In this document: positions 33,526 through 40,798 of the stretch, in pieces
Numbering within the stretch: position 1 is the stretch's first letter
Layout: each line of letters starts with the position of its first letter
DNA from: Spirosoma rigui
GTDB taxonomy: Bacteria; Bacteroidota; Bacteroidia; Cytophagales; Spirosomataceae
Direction: 5' to 3'
Assembly: GCF_002067135.1 (NCBI RefSeq)
Contig: NZ_CP020105.1
Span: 1,116,001 to 1,180,000, forward strand
DNA: 64,000 nucleotides
Notes under the pieces: generated by a model
What the model saw: only the letters and a program-made list of their open reading frames with translations
Told to the model about the DNA's origin: nothing
The model's database searches: none
Program-made: the position numbers and the translations under genes

Positions 33526-34374
33526 TTACGCCCGGATGGTGTCTACGAAGGCCTGGATGCTCTCCGGCGACGTTCCATGATCGTCGAGGTGGCGGATAAA
33601 GGCGCTACCAACAATGGCTCCATTGGCGTTGGCACAGGCCGAGTCAAAGGTTTCGTGGTTGTTGATGCCGAAGCCGATCAGGCGCGGATTACGCAGGTTC
33701 ATAGCCTTGATCCGCTCGAAATAAGCGCGCATGGGATCGCTGATGCCGGTGACCGAGCCGGTGATACTGGCCGACGAGACCATGTAAATAAAGCCATCTG
33801 ACTCCGCGTCAATCAGCCGGATACGCTCATCCGTCGTCTGGGGTGTAATCAGGTTCACGTTCAGGATACCATATGCGCGAAATGTTTCGGCATACTCGTC
33901 CAGGAACAAATCGAGTGGCAGGTCAGGCAAAATAACTCCGTCAACGCCTACTTCGCGGCACATCCGGCAGAAATTCTCGACTCCGTACTGAAGCACCGGG
34001 TTGATGTAGCCCATCAGCAGGATCGGTACCGTAATGGGCTCGCCTGTCGAATCGGTCCGGCAACCCACCAGCTGATCGAACAGCTTCTTGATCGACATAC
34101 CGTTCTCCAGCGCCCGGCCATTGCTCTTTTGAATCGTTTCACCATCGGCAACGGGGTCCGAATACGGCATACCAATTTCAACCAGGTCTACCCCTGCCTG
34201 TTGCAGTCCGCGCAAGATGGTAACCGTATCGTCCAGGTGCGGAAACCCGGCGGTGAAATAAATATTAAGGAGCCGCTCGCTTTTACGCGAAAACAGGCTT
34301 TTGATGCGATTTTCCGTCGTGCCGTCCGTTTCGGTTGGCCGTTGGATGTCGGGTTGCTCTATCATGATCGTCAC
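33526..34374 (-). CDS. trpA: Tryptophan synthase, alpha chain
   Basis: A 282-residue TIM barrel that cleaves indole-3-glycerol phosphate to indole and glyceraldehyde 3-phosphate and passes indole through a tunnel to TrpB. The catalytic Glu and Asp lie in VEIGMPYSDPVADGE, followed by IQKSNGRAL. GVDGVILPDLPLD and the phosphate-binding SITG and GFGINNHE segments follow. An alternative start two codons further in (MIEQPD) is possible. It is the last trp gene, 21 nt after trpB. Confidence 0.97.
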   Translation of the reverse strand: MTIMIEQPDIQRPTETDGTTENRIKSLFSRKSERLLNIYFTAGFPHLDDTVTILRGLQQAGVDLVEIGMPYSDPVADGETIQKSNGRALENGMSIKKLFDQLVGCRTDSTGEPITVPILLMGYINPVLQYGVENFCRMCREVGVDGVILPDLPLDLFLDEYAETFRAYGILNVNLITPQTTDERIRLIDAESDGFIYMVSSASITGSVTGISDPMRAYFERIKAMNLRNPRLIGFGINNHETFDSACANANGAIVGSAFIRHLDDHGTSPESIQAFVDTIRA

Positions 34375-34395: not shown

Positions 34396-35595
34396 CTACA
34401 AATACTGGGAATAGGTACTCAAATCTTTATCGCCACGCCCCGACAAACAAACGACGACAACATCGTCGGCTTTAAGGTTCATGTGCGACAGAGCCGCCAG
34501 AGCGTGCGCGGTTTCGATGGCCGGGATGATGCCTTCGAGCTTGCTGAGCTGGAAACCAGCGGCCATGGCGTCTTCGTCGGTAATGGCGTAGAAGTCACCC
34601 CTACCCGACTCGAACAGGTGCGCGTGAAGCGGTCCAATGCCCGGGTAATCGAGCCCCGCCGAAATGGAATAGGGCTCCGTCACCTGTCCGTCTTCGGTTT
34701 GCATCAAAATTGTCCGGCTACCGTGCAGGACTCCTGGTTTGCCAAGCGCTGTTGTGGCGGCCGAATGGCCTGACTCAACACCATGTCCTGCGGCTTCAAC
34801 GGCTACCAGCCGCACGGAGGGTTCGTTCAGGTAGTGGAAAAAAGCACCGGCTGCGTTGCTTCCCCCCCCTACGCAGGCTACTACGTAATCCGGATTTTCG
34901 CTGCCCGTTTTGGCAAACAGCTGTTTCCTGGTTTCCTGCGAAATAACCGACTGAAAGCGGGCGACCATATCCGGATACGGGTGTGGGCCCACTACTGAGC
35001 CGATGATGTAGTGCGTATCGACGGGGTTATTAATCCAGTGACGCATGGCCTCGTTGGTCGCATCTTTAAGCGTCTGACTACCCGACGTAGCTGGCACCAC
35101 TTTGGCACCCAGCATACGCATCCGGTCTACGTTAGGCTGTTGCCGCTTCATATCGACGCTGCCCATATAAACGATGCATTCGAGGCCCATCAGTGCACAA
35201 ACGGTGGCCGTTGCTACGCCGTGCTGACCGGCGCCCGTTTCGGCAACGATGCGCTTTTTGCCCAGCCGCTGCGCAACCAGGATCTGACCAATGGTATTGT
35301 TGATCTTGTGCGCGCCGGTATGACATAGGTCTTCGCGCTTGAGGTAGATGGTGGCACCTACCGTCTCCGAAAGCCGCTTGGCCAGGAACAAAGGCGTTGG
35401 CCGGCCAACGTAATCTTCCAGCAACTGCTGAAACTCGGCCTGAAACGACGGATCGGCGGTGATGGTGAGGTAGTTCTGCCGAAGTTCCTCTACGTTAGGG
35501 TAGAGCATTTCCGGGATGAATGCTCCGCCAAAATGGCCATAAAACCCCTTATCTGATACCTCGAAAGAGGTGGTTGGTTCAATTGTGGTTTGCAT
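34396..35595 (-). CDS. trpB: Tryptophan synthase, beta chain
   Basis: A 399-residue PLP enzyme joining indole and serine. The PLP lysine is in [33 protein letters not shown], the phosphate-cradle [16 protein letters not shown] and the terminal [17 protein letters not shown] are all present. The N-terminal [19 protein letters not shown] is the canonical TrpB1 opening, so it should pair with TrpA. A 255-nt hairpin-rich gap separates it from trpF, the largest inside the cluster. Confidence 0.97.
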
Positions 35596-35850: not shown

Positions 35851-36495
35851 TTACACGGCTTCTTCTTCCTCTACGGGCCGCAGGCGATTAATCAGCTCCT
35901 TCACTTTGGCTACATCCTTAACGCCGGGGGCTGTCTCTACCTGGCTGTTCACGTCAACGCCATACAACTTCATGCCTTTGAGCGCCGTCAGCTGATCGAG
36001 GTTGTCGAGGCCGATGCCTCCGCTGATGAAAAAGGGCTTTTCGTTATCGTAGCGGCTTAGGATGCTCCAGTCGAACGTATGGCCGTTGCCACCGGGCTGA
36101 TCACCTTTAGCATCGAAGAGGAAAAAGTCGCACTGGGCTTTGTAGTTGTTCAGCATCGAGAAGTTAAACGACTCATCGACCCGGAACGCCTTGATGATGT
36201 TGATGCCCCGGTTGCGCAGGCTCCGGCAGAAATCGGGTGTTTCATTGCCGTGCAGTTGAACGTACTGGAAATCGTATTTTTTCACGGTACGCAGGATAAA
36301 TTCCGGGCTGGCGTTCACGAAAACGCCCACCTTTCGGATCGAGCGGGGCAACGCTTTGACTACCTCCTCATCCAGCTCATCGCCCACGTAGCGGGGCGAC
36401 TGGTCGTAGAAAATGAACCCAACGAAGTCGGGACCAAGGGCGGCAATCTCTTTCAGGTTGTCGGCATCGCGCAGACCGCACACTTTGATTTTCAT
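35851..36495 (-). CDS. trpF: Phosphoribosylanthranilate isomerase
   Basis: A 214-residue TIM barrel, the third enzyme-bearing step of Trp synthesis after TrpD. The family opening MKIKVCGLRDADNLKEIAALG carries the catalytic Cys (Cys6). GFIFYDQSPRYV, VGVFVNASPEFI, VQLHGNE, the catalytic Asp in FLFDAKGDQPGGNG and the phosphate-binding FISGGIGLDN and GVDVNSQVETAPGVKD follow. The C-terminal tail is acidic (EEEEAV-like). It starts 11 nt after trpC. Confidence 0.97.
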   Translation of the reverse strand: MKIKVCGLRDADNLKEIAALGPDFVGFIFYDQSPRYVGDELDEEVVKALPRSIRKVGVFVNASPEFILRTVKKYDFQYVQLHGNETPDFCRSLRNRGINIIKAFRVDESFNFSMLNNYKAQCDFFLFDAKGDQPGGNGHTFDWSILSRYDNEKPFFISGGIGLDNLDQLTALKGMKLYGVDVNSQVETAPGVKDVAKVKELINRLRPVEEEEAV

Positions 36496-36506
36496 AGCTG
36501 TACGAG

Positions 36507-37313
36507 TTAGATAGGTATGGTTGTCGAGTTAAACTGAGCGACCAAGCCCGCCAGGGCTGCTGCCGGATCGGACGTTTTCATAAACGCTTCGCCGATCAGA
36601 AACCCGTCGAAACCCGCCTGAAACAACGCCCGCATGGTTTGGGCATCGTGCAGGCCACTTTCAGTGATCTTGGCAAACGTGTCTGGAATGCGCTCAATCA
36701 GTCGCATGGACGTATCAATAGATGTAACAAATGTTTTAAGATTTCGGTTGTTAACACCCACCAGATCGACCGTATGCGTTAGCGTGCGGTCGAGTTCGTC
36801 CTCATCGTGCACTTCGAGCAGGACCTGCATACCTACGTTGTGTGCCAGTTCGCTGAGGTCAATAACTTGTTGGGGCGTCAGGCAGGCGGCAATGAGCAGC
36901 ACCAGGTCGGCTCCCCACGCTTTTGCCTCCAGAATCTGGTAATCATCAATGACGAAGTCTTTCCGAAGAATAGGCGTCTCGGGATTGGCCAGACGGGCGG
37001 CCTGCAAATCGGCCAGGGTACCCCCGAAAAATGGTTCATCCGTCAACACGGACAACACGGCCGCACCGGCTTGCACGTACCCCTGCGTCGTGGTTGCTAC
37101 GTCGGCCTGGTCGTTGATAACACCTTTGGATGGAGATTTGCGCTTGAATTCGGCAATGATACCCGTTGAACGGTAGGCCTGAACGGCGTCGCGCGCTGAC
37201 AGGGGCATTCGCTTAAAATCGGGCATCAGTTCCAGCGCCGATATCGGGGTAGCCGCCATGCGTTCGGCGACTTCAATTCGTTTTTGAGCAACTATCTGGT
37301 CCAGAATGGTCAT
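36507..37313 (-). CDS. trpC: Indole-3-glycerol phosphate synthase
   Basis: A 268-residue TIM barrel converting CdRP to indole-3-glycerol phosphate. It shows IIAEFKRKSPSKGVI, the catalytic-lysine and phosphate segment; VLSVLTDEPFFGGTLADL; PILRKDFVIDDYQI; LLIAACL; LLEVHDEDELDR; GVNNRNLKTF; and ITESGLHD with GFLIGEAFM. It is a stand-alone TrpC, not fused to TrpF as in E. coli. It is separated from trpD by 93 nt. Confidence 0.97.
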   Translation of the reverse strand: MTILDQIVAQKRIEVAERMAATPISALELMPDFKRMPLSARDAVQAYRSTGIIAEFKRKSPSKGVINDQADVATTTQGYVQAGAAVLSVLTDEPFFGGTLADLQAARLANPETPILRKDFVIDDYQILEAKAWGADLVLLIAACLTPQQVIDLSELAHNVGMQVLLEVHDEDELDRTLTHTVDLVGVNNRNLKTFVTSIDTSMRLIERIPDTFAKITESGLHDAQTMRALFQAGFDGFLIGEAFMKTSDPAAALAGLVAQFNSTTIPI

Positions 37314-37406: not shown

Positions 37407-38393
37407 CTACATCATTAACTTCTTAAAACAGGCCAGCGCCCGGCCGCTTTCCAGCGATTCGAGCGCCATCGATACGGCCTCGGCCCGGTCATTTGTTTTA
37501 CCCGCGGCCAGGAGTGCCATCGCCGAATTGGCCAGAACTGCCTGTGTTTGAGCCGGTGTGGCCTGGTTGTTCAGCACATTCATGAATATCTGCGCTGATT
37601 CGTCCAGCGTTCGTCCTCCTGCCAGTGACTCGGCGCTCAACTTATTCATTCCCAGATCTTTCGGTTCAAGCAGCAATTCGGTGTGGTTACTGATGACCTT
37701 AAAGGCGCCCGTCAGCGATATTTCATCGTACCCGTCGAGCGCGTGCAGGATCATAAACTGCTTGTCTGTCTGCTGATAAAGGTACGCATATAATCGAGCC
37801 AATTCAAGGTTGAACACGCCAACGAGCTGTTTTTGAGGACGTGCGGGGTTGACCATTGGGCCGAGTACGTTGAAAAACGTTTTCACGCCCAGTTCTTTCC
37901 GGATCGGGCCAATATTCTTCATGGCCGGGTGAAACAGCGGAGCGTGCAAAAAGCAGATACCAGCCGTTTCTATCTTCCGCTGTAACTCGCCGATATCGTT
38001 CGTGAATCGATAGCCCAGATACTCCATAACGGTCGACGAACCAACCAGTGATGAAACTCCGTGGTTACCGTGCTTGGCAACGCGTTGCCCCGCCCCGGCT
38101 ACGACAAAGGACGACAGCGTCGAGATATTGAACGTGTCTTTGCCGTCGCCCCCGGTTCCACAGAGATCCATAGGATCGTAGGCGTCCAGATCGATGGGCA
38201 GACAGAGTTCGAGCATGGCGTCACGGAAGCCCTGTAGCTCTTCGACGCGCAAACTGCGCATCATGTACACGGTGAGAAACGACGCAACCTGCGACGCGTT
38301 ATAAGCACCCTGTCCAATGCCGATCAGGGTCTGACGAGCCTGTTCTTTAGACAGCGTTTTGTATTCGAAGAGGTGATTTAGTATTGCTTTCAT
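37407..38393 (-). CDS. trpD: Anthranilate phosphoribosyltransferase
   Basis: A 328-residue class-III phosphoribosyltransferase joining anthranilate and PRPP. The PRPP-binding motif is CGTGGDGKDTFNIST, followed by KHGNHGVSSLVGSSTVMEYLG, FLHAPLFHPAMKNIGPIRKELGVKTFFNVLGPMVNPA and YDEISLTG. It stands alone rather than fused to TrpG. It lies 37 nt after trpG in the same direction. Confidence 0.97.
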   Translation of the reverse strand: MKAILNHLFEYKTLSKEQARQTLIGIGQGAYNASQVASFLTVYMMRSLRVEELQGFRDAMLELCLPIDLDAYDPMDLCGTGGDGKDTFNISTLSSFVVAGAGQRVAKHGNHGVSSLVGSSTVMEYLGYRFTNDIGELQRKIETAGICFLHAPLFHPAMKNIGPIRKELGVKTFFNVLGPMVNPARPQKQLVGVFNLELARLYAYLYQQTDKQFMILHALDGYDEISLTGAFKVISNHTELLLEPKDLGMNKLSAESLAGGRTLDESAQIFMNVLNNQATPAQTQAVLANSAMALLAAGKTNDRAEAVSMALESLESGRALACFKKLMM

Positions 38394-38430: not shown

Positions 38431-38997
38431 TTAGATCGACAGCCAGTTCTCGATCATTTTTACGCCATTTTCAGTCAGCACCGATTCGGGGTGAAACTGT
38501 AGACCCCGTACATCGAACCGGGTGTGGGCGAGGGCCATAACACGTCCGTGCTCATCGACGGCCGTTGTGCGTAGTTCGGCCGGCATCGAATCGGGGACTA
38601 CCGTCCAGGAGTGGTACCGGCCAACCGTTAGTTCTTCGGGAATACCAGCGAAGAGCCGCTCGGAGGGGTCCGTTACGTTAGTCCGGTGCGCTACGCCGTG
38701 CAGTACGTCGCCCAGGTTTTCGAGTTGCGCGCCATACACCTCACCAATACCCTGGTGCCCCAGGCAGATACCCAGGATACTTTTGGTTGGGCCATATTCA
38801 GCCACCAGCTCCTGCATAATACCCGCTTCGGAAGGGATACCGGGACCCGGTGAGAGCATGATTTTGTCATATTGGGCCACATCTGTCAGGGCAATTTTGT
38901 TGTTCCGGATCACATCCGGCCGGTACCCCAGCTCCCGCAGTATGTAGACGAGGTTGTAGGTGAACGAATCGTAGTTGTCTAAAACGAGAAGTTTCAT
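38431..38997 (-). CDS. trpG: Anthranilate synthase, glutamine amidotransferase subunit
   Basis: A 188-residue class-I amidotransferase that supplies ammonia to TrpE. It opens KLLVLDNYDSFTYNLV. The oxyanion PGPGIPSEAG is at about 50-59, the nucleophile Cys78 in GICLGHQGIGEVYG, and the His-Glu pair in QFHPESVLTENG. In some bacteria the same subunit serves both anthranilate and aminodeoxychorismate synthases; its place directly after trpE supports the Trp role here. An 84-nt gap separates it from trpE. Confidence 0.96.
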   Translation of the reverse strand: MKLLVLDNYDSFTYNLVYILRELGYRPDVIRNNKIALTDVAQYDKIMLSPGPGIPSEAGIMQELVAEYGPTKSILGICLGHQGIGEVYGAQLENLGDVLHGVAHRTNVTDPSERLFAGIPEELTVGRYHSWTVVPDSMPAELRTTAVDEHGRVMALAHTRFDVRGLQFHPESVLTENGVKMIENWLSI

Positions 38998-39081: not shown

Positions 39082-40515
39082 TTAAATAGTTTTTGCCTGT
39101 TCGATGGCCATCCGAAGGGCGGCCAGTTTGTTATGCACTTCCTGTAATTCACTTTCCACGACCGATTTAGCGACTACGCCCGCGCCCGCCTGATAGTACA
39201 GGGTGTTGTCTTTACTCATAAACGTGCGGATCATGATGGCGTGGTTGAATTCACCATCAAAACCCATATAACCAATGCTACCGGAGTAGAACGAGCGGCT
39301 CAGGCTCTCGTAGCGATCAATCAGCTGCATGGCGTTATGCTTGGGCGCACCAGATAGTGTGCCGGCGGGGAACGTTTCAGCAACGATCTGGAGTGGATCA
39401 GCTTCGGTAGTGAGCTCACCCACCACTTTAGACACGAGGTGAATGACGTGCGAGTAATACTGCACCTCCTTGAACGTTTCGACCTTCACAACGTCGCAAT
39501 TGCGGCTGAGGTCGTTACGGGCCAGATCGACCAGCATCACGTGCTCGGCTGACTCTTTCGGGTCATCGTAGAGCTTCTGGGCCAGTTCGGCATCGCGAAT
39601 ATCGTCGCCGGTGCGCCGGAAGGTACCGGCGATGGGGTAAATAGTGGCCTGACGATCTTTGACCACAATCTGCGACTCGGGCGAGGAGCCGAAAATCTTG
39701 TAGTTGCCGTAGTCGAAGTAGAACAGATAAGGTGATGGATTCAGCGAGCGTAGCGACCGATAGACGTTGAATTCGTCGCCCATGAAAGGCGTCTCGAACC
39801 GCCGGGAGAGAACAATCTGAAATACATCACCCCGCTGGCAGTGATCTTTGCCCTTCTGAATGACAGCGCGGAACTCATCGTCGGTGAAGTTAGACTGTTC
39901 AGGACCCGTGGGACTGAAGGTATAGGTCGGATAATTGCGCCCTGTAATCATGTCGCTGATGTCATCGAGCGTGCTGTCGGGCTGCGAATCGCCGTTGCTG
40001 AGGTAGCTGTGCTCAAAGAGATACAGTTCGTCTTTGAAATGGTTGATGGCGATAACGTAGCGGTATACGGTGAAAACGGCCGCTGGAATCTGATTTTCTT
40101 CGGGGACGGGTGCGTGTAGCGTAATGTCTTCAAAGCTCTGTACCGCCGGGTAGCCGAAGTAGCCGAACAGACCATTATTAATGAACGGAAACGGCGCTTT
40201 CTCGTGGTCGAAGCTATCCTTGAACTGTTGCAGGGCGGCCAGCATGTCATTGGGCCGTACATCGGTGATCGTTTCCGGCTGGCCGGGCATGCGTACCGTC
40301 AGCCGTTGCCCTTCGTAAGAAAACTGCGCAACGGGATCGAAGGCAATGTACGAAAAGCTGTTGTCGTTGCCGTGGTAGTCCGAGCTTTCGAGCAGGATAC
40401 TGTTGCGGTAGCGGTCCCGGATGCGGAGGTAGATGCTAACCGGCGTAATGATGTCGGCCAGCATGCGTTTATGGCGGCTAACAATACGGTAGGAGGTTGG
40501 TTGGGTCGTGATCAT
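39082..40515 (-). CDS. trpE: Anthranilate synthase component I
   Basis: A 477-residue chorismate-binding enzyme making anthranilate. The regulatory LLESSDYHG near residue 40 carries the LLES element that binds tryptophan for feedback inhibition. The catalytic domain shows QIVLSRRFETPF, YLFYFDYGNYKIFGSSPE, PIAGTFRRTGDD, ELAQKLYDDPKE, HVMLVDLARNDL, TFPAGTLSGAPKHNAMQLI and GSIGYMGFDG. I chose the ATG at 40515: the 29 residues upstream would run through the attenuator terminator. Control is likely both allosteric and by attenuation. Confidence 0.96.
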   Translation of the reverse strand: MITTQPTSYRIVSRHKRMLADIITPVSIYLRIRDRYRNSILLESSDYHGNDNSFSYIAFDPVAQFSYEGQRLTVRMPGQPETITDVRPNDMLAALQQFKDSFDHEKAPFPFINNGLFGYFGYPAVQSFEDITLHAPVPEENQIPAAVFTVYRYVIAINHFKDELYLFEHSYLSNGDSQPDSTLDDISDMITGRNYPTYTFSPTGPEQSNFTDDEFRAVIQKGKDHCQRGDVFQIVLSRRFETPFMGDEFNVYRSLRSLNPSPYLFYFDYGNYKIFGSSPESQIVVKDRQATIYPIAGTFRRTGDDIRDAELAQKLYDDPKESAEHVMLVDLARNDLSRNCDVVKVETFKEVQYYSHVIHLVSKVVGELTTEADPLQIVAETFPAGTLSGAPKHNAMQLIDRYESLSRSFYSGSIGYMGFDGEFNHAIMIRTFMSKDNTLYYQAGAGVVAKSVVESELQEVHNKLAALRMAIEQAKTI

Positions 40516-40533: not shown

Positions 40534-40569
40534 AAAAAAATAAGGCTCACCGGGATGACGGTGAGCCTT
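40534..40569 (-). terminator. trp attenuator terminator
   Basis: AAGGCTCACCG and CGGTGAGCCTT form an 11-bp stem around a 6-nt loop, followed on the reverse strand by ATTTTTTT, 19 nt before the trpE start. A terminator in front of the first structural gene, behind a Trp-rich leader peptide, is the attenuator arrangement. The segment 40552-40562 can pair instead with 40602-40612 over the leader stop codon. Confidence 0.9.
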
Positions 40570-40601
40570 GGTATATCTGTTGGTAAACAACAATAGCGGC
40601 A

Positions 40602-40612
40602 ACCTTCATCCC
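40602..40612 (-). promoter_or_regulatory. Candidate antiterminator strand of the trp attenuator
   Basis: On the reverse strand GGGATGAAGGT includes the leader stop codon. It can pair with ACCGTCATCCC (40552-40562), which spans the loop and the end of the ascending arm of the terminator: 10 of 11 positions pair, with one A-G mismatch. A ribosome paused at the Trp codons would leave it free; one at the stop codon would cover it. Confidence 0.75.
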
Positions 40613-40641
40613 AAATGAGAAGAATGCCACCACCAGATCAT
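40606..40641 (-). CDS. trpL: trp operon leader peptide
   Basis: A 12-codon frame encoding [11 protein letters not shown]. Codons 3-5 are three consecutive TGG Trp codons, an arrangement very unlikely by chance in the gap before trpE. Low charged tRNA-Trp would stall a ribosome there, exposing the downstream segment 40602-40612 and favouring the antiterminator; ample Trp lets the ribosome reach the stop codon and the terminator forms. This is the classical design of proteobacterial trpL. Its own ribosome-binding site is not obvious. Confidence 0.88.
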
Positions 40642-40692
40642 GTTTACCGAGTTATTCACGAGTTAACTTGTTTTGCTTTTTTTACTCCTGTG

Positions 40693-40766
40693 TCGGGGTG
40701 GCGGGATTCGAACCCACGACCTCTACGTCCCGAACGTAGCGCGCTACCAGGCTGCGCTACACCCCG
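40693..40766 (-). tRNA. tRNA-Pro (anticodon CGG)
   Basis: A 74-nt cloverleaf on the reverse strand: acceptor CGGGGTG/CACCCCG, D arm GCGC AGCCTGGTA GCGC, anticodon arm CTACG TTCGGGA CGTAG (anticodon CGG), variable AGGTC, T arm GTGGG TTCGAAT CCCGC, and discriminator A. CCA is not encoded. It lies 51 nt upstream of trpL on the same strand, with no clear terminator or promoter between, so transcription could run from it into the trp leader. Confidence 0.97.
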
Positions 40767-40798
40767 AATTGGGTCACAAAGATAAATTGATTGTTTTT

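Follow-up and report, generated by a model that had tools for sequence, protein, structure and literature searches.

The leader in front of the trpEGDCFBA operon of Spirosoma rigui is very probably a ribosome-mediated transcription attenuator. It lies on the minus strand of the 64,000-nucleotide stretch that was analyzed (hereafter the window; all coordinates are positions in it). Its parts, their conservation, their alternative pairings and their spacing are evident from the sequence and from its comparison with relatives. A short ORF rich in codons for Trp precedes the Trp biosynthesis operon, and an intrinsic terminator, recognized by sequence and fold, separates the leader from the first gene. 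An antiterminator that excludes the terminator shares its ascending arm and shows compensatory change between lineages, relatedness among them being ignored. With a ribosome footprint of the size that we assume, the spacing would free the antiterminator when a ribosome stalls at the Trp codons and block it when the ribosome is at the stop codon. A Trp-codon attenuator had been proposed in an earlier note on this DNA, and this reading holds on the strength of conservation in the genus, covariation across lineages and near-constant spacing.

The first gene of the operon, trpE (39082..40515, ATG at 40515), has TIGR00564 trpE as its best NCBIfam model, with 421 bits, under the curated cut-off of 517.7. 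It is followed on the same strand by trpG (38431-38997, TrpG/PabA subfamily), trpD (37407-38393), trpC (36507-37313), trpF (35851-36495), trpB (34396-35595) and trpA (33526-34374). Models scored above cut-off for each of these genes except trpF, whose best model is just under it (200 of 215). The gene order is thus trpE-G-D-C-F-B-A, then hisIE.

The minus strand carries, from 5′ to 3′, tRNA-Pro(CGG), the leader ORF, its TGA stop, the terminator, the T run and trpE. Three consecutive TGG codons are present in the leader at 40627..40635, as noted earlier. The peptide had been taken to have 11 residues starting at ATG 40641. This internal ATG is absent in six of 36 loci of the genus (L004, L013, L019, L020, L025 and L035), and all 36 have an ATG or GTG 21-27 nt ahead of the Trp run (31 ATG and 5 GTG, the window having GTG). 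The start is therefore most likely GTG 40659, judging from this comparison, and the ORF (40606..40659) would encode 17 amino acids followed by a TGA stop at 40608-40606. An NCBIfam search with two trp leader queries matched no leader-peptide model.

The terminator is an 11-bp hairpin with a 6-nt loop, AAGGCTCACCG-TCATCC-CGGTGAGCCTT (40542..40569), followed by a T run at 40534..40540. Both had been described before; the distance from the T run to the trpE ATG is 18 nt, not 19 nt as stated then. The hairpin folds at -20.1 kcal/mol (z -6.98), and the whole leader region at -50.2 kcal/mol vs -31.2 +/- 3.8 for shuffles (z -5.05). The alternative pairing put forward earlier, of GGGATGAAGGT (40612-40602) with ACCGTCATCCC (40562-40552) in 10 of 11 positions, is real but incomplete: GCC at 40600-40598 forms three more pairs with GGC at 40567-40565, giving about 13 bp in total. 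Pairing analyses place the antiterminator 5′ strand at 40598..40612, overlapping the TGA stop, and the 3′ strand at 40552..40567, which comprises the terminator ascending arm, the loop and the first base of the descending arm. None of 200 dinucleotide shuffles of the sequence that follows the Trp run matched the native pairing with the terminator arm and loop (p 0.005).

All 36 genus genomes searched contain a trpE orthologue, and leader, Trp run, stop codon and terminator were found in 36/36. In the alignment of relatives suggested in the earlier note, the TGG run does not vary, and each of the 36 genomes keeps both stems described there. A third helix had escaped description. In this protector hairpin (1:2; 40594..40635), positions 40635-40618, which include the Trp codons, pair with 40611-40594, and the antiterminator 5′ strand is hidden. 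In the genus alignment A1, consisting of 35 distinct rows, the 14 protector pairs are formed in 99.6% of cells. One of these pairs joins the His codon's third base to the base that follows the stop codon, and it is U-A instead of C-G in 10 sequences; C/U at the first position tracks G/A at the second with one exception and five gaps. This stem shows the clearest compensatory change inside the genus. The terminator helix is paired in 100% of cells of the 35 sequences, with one compensated pair, in one sequence. The antiterminator helix is 98.0% paired, and none of its pairs is changed on both sides within A1. The covariation check proposed earlier gave one compensated pair for the terminator in the genus, and for the antiterminator strands covariation between lineages (see below) but not within the genus. 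A second trpE copy, 75% identical and without a leader, was seen in one genome (L037, G024).

WWWHS is constant across the 36 genus leaders, as would be expected of a TnaC-like arrest peptide, in which IWWWHSS itself, rather than slow decoding of UGG, would halt the ribosome. We consider such an arrest peptide highly unlikely. The third base of the His codon changes synonymously together with its RNA partner, so the conservation is at least partly that of the RNA. Outside the genus the residues flanking the Trp run vary, while the run persists in most leaders.

The antiterminator is too conserved in the genus to be proved from it alone, and wider relatives were therefore compared. A model built from alignment A1, R1, at E<=0.01 matches 94 of 200 family genomes and 91 of 390 order genomes, Spirosoma's own genus being counted in both. 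Where R1 also hit the reverse strand of a locus, the hit is most likely the terminator palindrome read backwards, and such hits were set aside. For an estimate independent of R1, genomes were searched for TrpE and the upstream region was inspected, a leader being a short ORF with at least 2 W in 4 residues. Such an ORF was found upstream of trpE in 77/80 genomes of a named set, which spans Spirosoma, Dyadobacter, Hymenobacter, Algoriphagus, Flavobacterium, Sphingobacterium and Pedobacter, and in 40/53 class, 28/42 phylum and 5/5 order genomes. The same rule on the reverse strand gave 8/80, 3/53, 2/42 and 0/5, respectively, and a small number of the positives probably represent chance ORFs. No leader was found by this rule in 3/80 named, 13/53 class and 14/42 phylum genomes. 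The class set holds 53 of 60 class-level genomes outside the order, three being omitted at contig edges and four as low partial matches; the order set holds five of six order-level genomes (G234 was omitted); the 42 phylum genomes were picked to spread over families and are not a random sample. The sets overlap (L142 = L029, L143 = L035, L144 = L075, L154 = L113, L169 = L228 and L185 = L224). A slightly stricter rule found a leader in 176 of 180 loci and a terminator in 172 of those 176, L068 and L139 being omitted from the 180 as second copies of loci already included. In L073 and L074 a leader is present and the parser returned no terminator, though R1 aligned both loci end to end.

Eight of 74 loci examined have an R1 match and no trpE downstream (L106, L107, L127, L129, L130, L131, L133 and L136). 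By eye, a Trp-rich leader and a terminator precede an apparent trpB in L127 (approximately 300-460 of the strand matched). L131 (approximately 300-460) looks much the same, its downstream frame apparently being broken; the leaders of these two loci carry YWCWH or YWHWH. No Trp leader was seen by eye in L106, L129, L130, L133, L136 or L107. Two tandem Trp-rich leaders, each with its own terminator-like hairpin, precede a single trpE in L115, L126, L132 and L158.

The antiterminator was assessed in each sequence by pairing the sequence that follows the Trp run with the terminator ascending arm and loop and comparing the result with dinucleotide shuffles. Pairing beats the shuffles at p<=0.05 in 145 of 172 loci: 36/36 from the genus, 55/62 selected by R1 and 54/74 from the named set. 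The remaining 27 loci fail at this threshold, and the antiterminator is therefore not recognized everywhere by the shuffle rule. Among the failures are six Hymenobacter loci with a WWWP-type leader (L161, L162, L163, L165, L174 and L177; p 0.055 to 0.72), which may use another pairing, and some Sphingobacteriaceae-like loci (L181, L187 and L199). The Hymenobacter WWWP leaders continue with a Gly/Arg-rich tail, such as WWWPYGNSGRDNLCVR.

The antiterminator of the window pairs GGGATGA with TCATCCC. In other lineages the strands are GATGAACAG with CTGTTCATC, GGGAAAG.TCAG with CTGG.TTTCCC, and TCGTGA with TCACGA. Strands were swapped among 229 distinct loci out of 239 in which leader and terminator were parsed. 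Sixty of the distinct loci had been selected by R1 and are for this reason biased towards having a leader. Own strands paired at a mean of -16.5 kcal/mol vs -11.3 for swapped ones, the lowest of 2000 permutation means being -12.07; relatedness among loci is ignored in this comparison. Within the genus, own and swapped strands are alike (-22.68 vs -22.35), as one would expect of an antiterminator so conserved. Judging from these sequences, the antiterminator strands co-vary between lineages.

The position of the antiterminator relative to the Trp codons is also constrained. In 74% of 227 loci, the distinct loci minus two with a long spacer, its 5′ strand begins at a distance of 13-19 nt from the end of the Trp run, compared with 19% of shuffles; the median distance is 15 nt. 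This spacing fits a ribosome of the footprint that we assume stalled on a Trp codon. The stop codon position is much more variable than the start of the 5′ strand. The span of the duplex overlaps the stop codon in 133/172 loci, and in 126/172 (90/136 outside the genus) a stop-codon base takes part in the pairing, so the overlap is common and not required. An antiterminator running through the leader stop codon, to which the earlier note had drawn attention, is therefore true of the window and frequent elsewhere, but it is not general. The co-varying antiterminators and the near-constant ribosome spacing provide phylum-scale evidence for leader-peptide trp attenuation in Bacteroidota.

From the arrangement of these parts we infer how termination, ribosome stalling and a response to Trp could come about in the window leader. 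RNA polymerase, probably starting from the tRNA-Pro promoter, would transcribe the leader, and a ribosome would begin the 17-residue peptide. With enough Trp-tRNA the ribosome would clear the Trp codons, reach UGA and cover GGGAUGAAGGU; the antiterminator would then be blocked, the terminator would form and transcription would stop. When Trp-tRNA is scarce, the ribosome would stall at UGG, open the protector hairpin and free GGGAUGA.GGU.GCC, which would pair with the nascent GGC..ACC.UCAUCCC, allowing trpEGDCFBA to be transcribed. In a transcript with no ribosome, both protector and terminator would form and transcription would stop. Constrained folding with a ribosome mask, whose lengths we assumed, gave matching structures at most mask positions. 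Masking at either of the first two Trp codons makes the antiterminator the minimum, even with a complete terminator. With the mask at Trp codon 3 and the terminator complete, the terminator is the minimum (-25.2), a marginal result, and the order of synthesis would therefore decide. A mask over the stop codon permits the terminator alone, and an unmasked leader folds into protector and terminator. Translation in Bacteroidota mostly starts without a Shine-Dalgarno sequence, so a working attenuator would need tight coupling of transcription and translation. The window leader could serve to test such coupling in this phylum.

The tRNA-Pro(CGG) gene (40692..40766), identified by a tRNA search directly upstream of the leader and on the same strand, would need an end of its own, and the hairpin could be the constitutive terminator of that unit, with a trpE promoter further downstream and the leader ORF being incidental. 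We give this explanation very little credence, given that only 18 nt lie between the U run and trpE, and that loci across the phylum, most of those scanned having no tRNA, share the Trp run, the spacing and the co-varying antiterminator. With the hairpin read as part of an attenuator, the tRNA linkage is the less expected part of the arrangement and is worth a second look.

In the window, 32 nt separate tRNA-Pro(CGG) from the leader start. A promoter-like box, TATCTTTG (40777..40784, minus strand), precedes the tRNA and matches TAnnTTTG, which we take to be the Bacteroidota -7 promoter consensus. Upstream of the leader, ARAGORN calls a tRNA-Pro in 27/36 genus genomes; in L007, L026 and L032 the call is a 93-nt gene with an insert. 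The other nine have no ARAGORN tRNA, and short or decayed remnants were seen by eye. The TAnnTTTG box is found before the tRNA or its remnant in 36/36. A further tRNA-Pro-like copy, degenerate and carrying an insert close to the T arm, was also seen by eye in at least eight genomes. In a further 15 loci picked for having a tRNA-Pro call, which represent 12 genomes beyond the genus together with L142 and L143 in the genus and L144, a repeat of L075, the box starts 13-19 nt before the tRNA in 15/15. In L073-L076, L088 and L144 (Rudanella) the leader ATG lies 12-15 nt after the tRNA, too close for a promoter to fit in the gap. The box kept before tRNA or remnant and these tight gaps thus make it likely that tRNA-Pro and the trp leader are transcribed together.

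A different tRNA gene is interposed in some relatives. In Xanthocytophaga flavus (L157), leader and trpE are separated by a tRNA-Trp gene (1406-1479), which begins 3 nt past the last T of the T-rich tail of the terminator. A tRNA-Trp(CCA) is interposed in three of eight genomes of the Xanthocytophaga family (G875, G881 and G882; L326-L328), two of which, G875 and G881, were shown to have a second tRNA-Trp gene elsewhere. Two others (L329 and L330) have leader and trpE with no tRNA between them, and the query matched nothing in the remaining three. L259, from a genome outside Spirosoma's order, also has a tRNA-Trp(CCA), at 53-124, between attenuator and trpE.

On balance, we think it rather likely that the trp operon of Spirosoma, Rudanella, Larkinella and their kin lacks its own promoter and forms the distal portion of a tRNA-Pro(CGG) transcription unit, with the 5′ end of the attenuator produced by tRNA processing and the tRNA promoter retained for trp even where the tRNA has decayed, and that in the kin of Xanthocytophaga and in a single genome from another order a switch sensing charged tRNA-Trp also sets the amount of tRNA-Trp. 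If functional, an attenuator with an interposed tRNA-Trp would control the supply of the very tRNA that it senses, forming a feedback loop. These tRNA linkages point to one way in which an operon may acquire a promoter.

A T-box or a metabolite-binding riboswitch sensing tRNA-Trp or Trp directly would regulate the same operon through the same terminator, and can be practically discounted, since no T-box or riboswitch model of Rfam reaches its gathering score in the window or appears among the hits with E up to 10 when 371 and 161 bases spanning the leader are searched, and the leader is only about 125 nt long with the ORF as its conserved core. The best-scoring leader family for the window's attenuator is RF00513 Trp_leader, presumably proteobacterial trpL, whose 26.7 bits (E 0.002 over 371 bases) fall short of its gathering score, 41 bits. 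The two share the same logic and the same order of parts. In E. coli trpL the stop codon stands between segments 1 and 2, whereas that of the window is inside the antiterminator 5′ strand. Vitreschak et al. reportedly described some attenuators in Bacteroidetes/Chlorobi in 2004, and a 2008 review by Merino et al. is said to treat trp regulation. No title on trp attenuation in Spirosoma or Cytophagales was found among the matches listed, a coverage that takes in few subscription journals.

Passages of Weinberg et al. 2010 (PMC2864571) describe Bacteroid-trp, RF01692, as a probable cis-regulatory RNA in Bacteroidetes, and Rfam names it a tryptophan peptide leader. It comes from the same phylum as the window leader, is of the same peptide-leader kind and lies upstream of trpE in tested loci. 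The antiterminators differ, TCGTGA:TCACGA being found in Flavobacterium-type leaders and GGGATGA:TCATCCC in the window. RF01692 passes its cut-off (gathering score 49 bits) upstream of trpE in 7/20 loci (four Flavobacterium, one Bizionia, one Aquimarina and one Bacteroidia MAG), in one of 16 further loci (L230) and in 6/101 genomes of the family of Spirosoma rigui. It has no match around the window leader up to E 10 and none in the Spirosoma rigui genome at E<=0.01. Actinobacterial trp attenuators, as presented in passages of a BMC Microbiol 2005 study (PMC1262725), consist of leader peptides with double or triple UGG, an antiterminator and a GC-rich terminator with poly-U. These are the parts found in the window, with other pairing triples (gGCC-rGCy-GGCC) and in another phylum. 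In Bacteroidota, sections of a Flavobacterium psychrophilum transcriptome study report strong clues for leader-peptide attenuation before amino-acid biosynthesis operons (PMC9723704), and sections of a Bacteroides thetaiotaomicron study report short ORFs in long 5′ UTRs that are reminiscent of leader peptides (PMC7366714). The main text of the former, when searched, gave neither trp nor tryptophan, and that of the latter neither trpE nor tryptophan.

The novelty of the window leader is modest because Rfam already holds a trp leader of this kind for the phylum. It is a divergent trp attenuator of the catalogued kind that scores under both Rfam cut-offs, and it adds a branch of trp attenuators that falls below both existing models.

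The Spirosoma rigui genome contains one more leader-like element. A short ORF rich in His codons (MISQRATAFPLRHRRHHRGC; L322, 1121-1183) was seen upstream of hisG and is perhaps a His leader.
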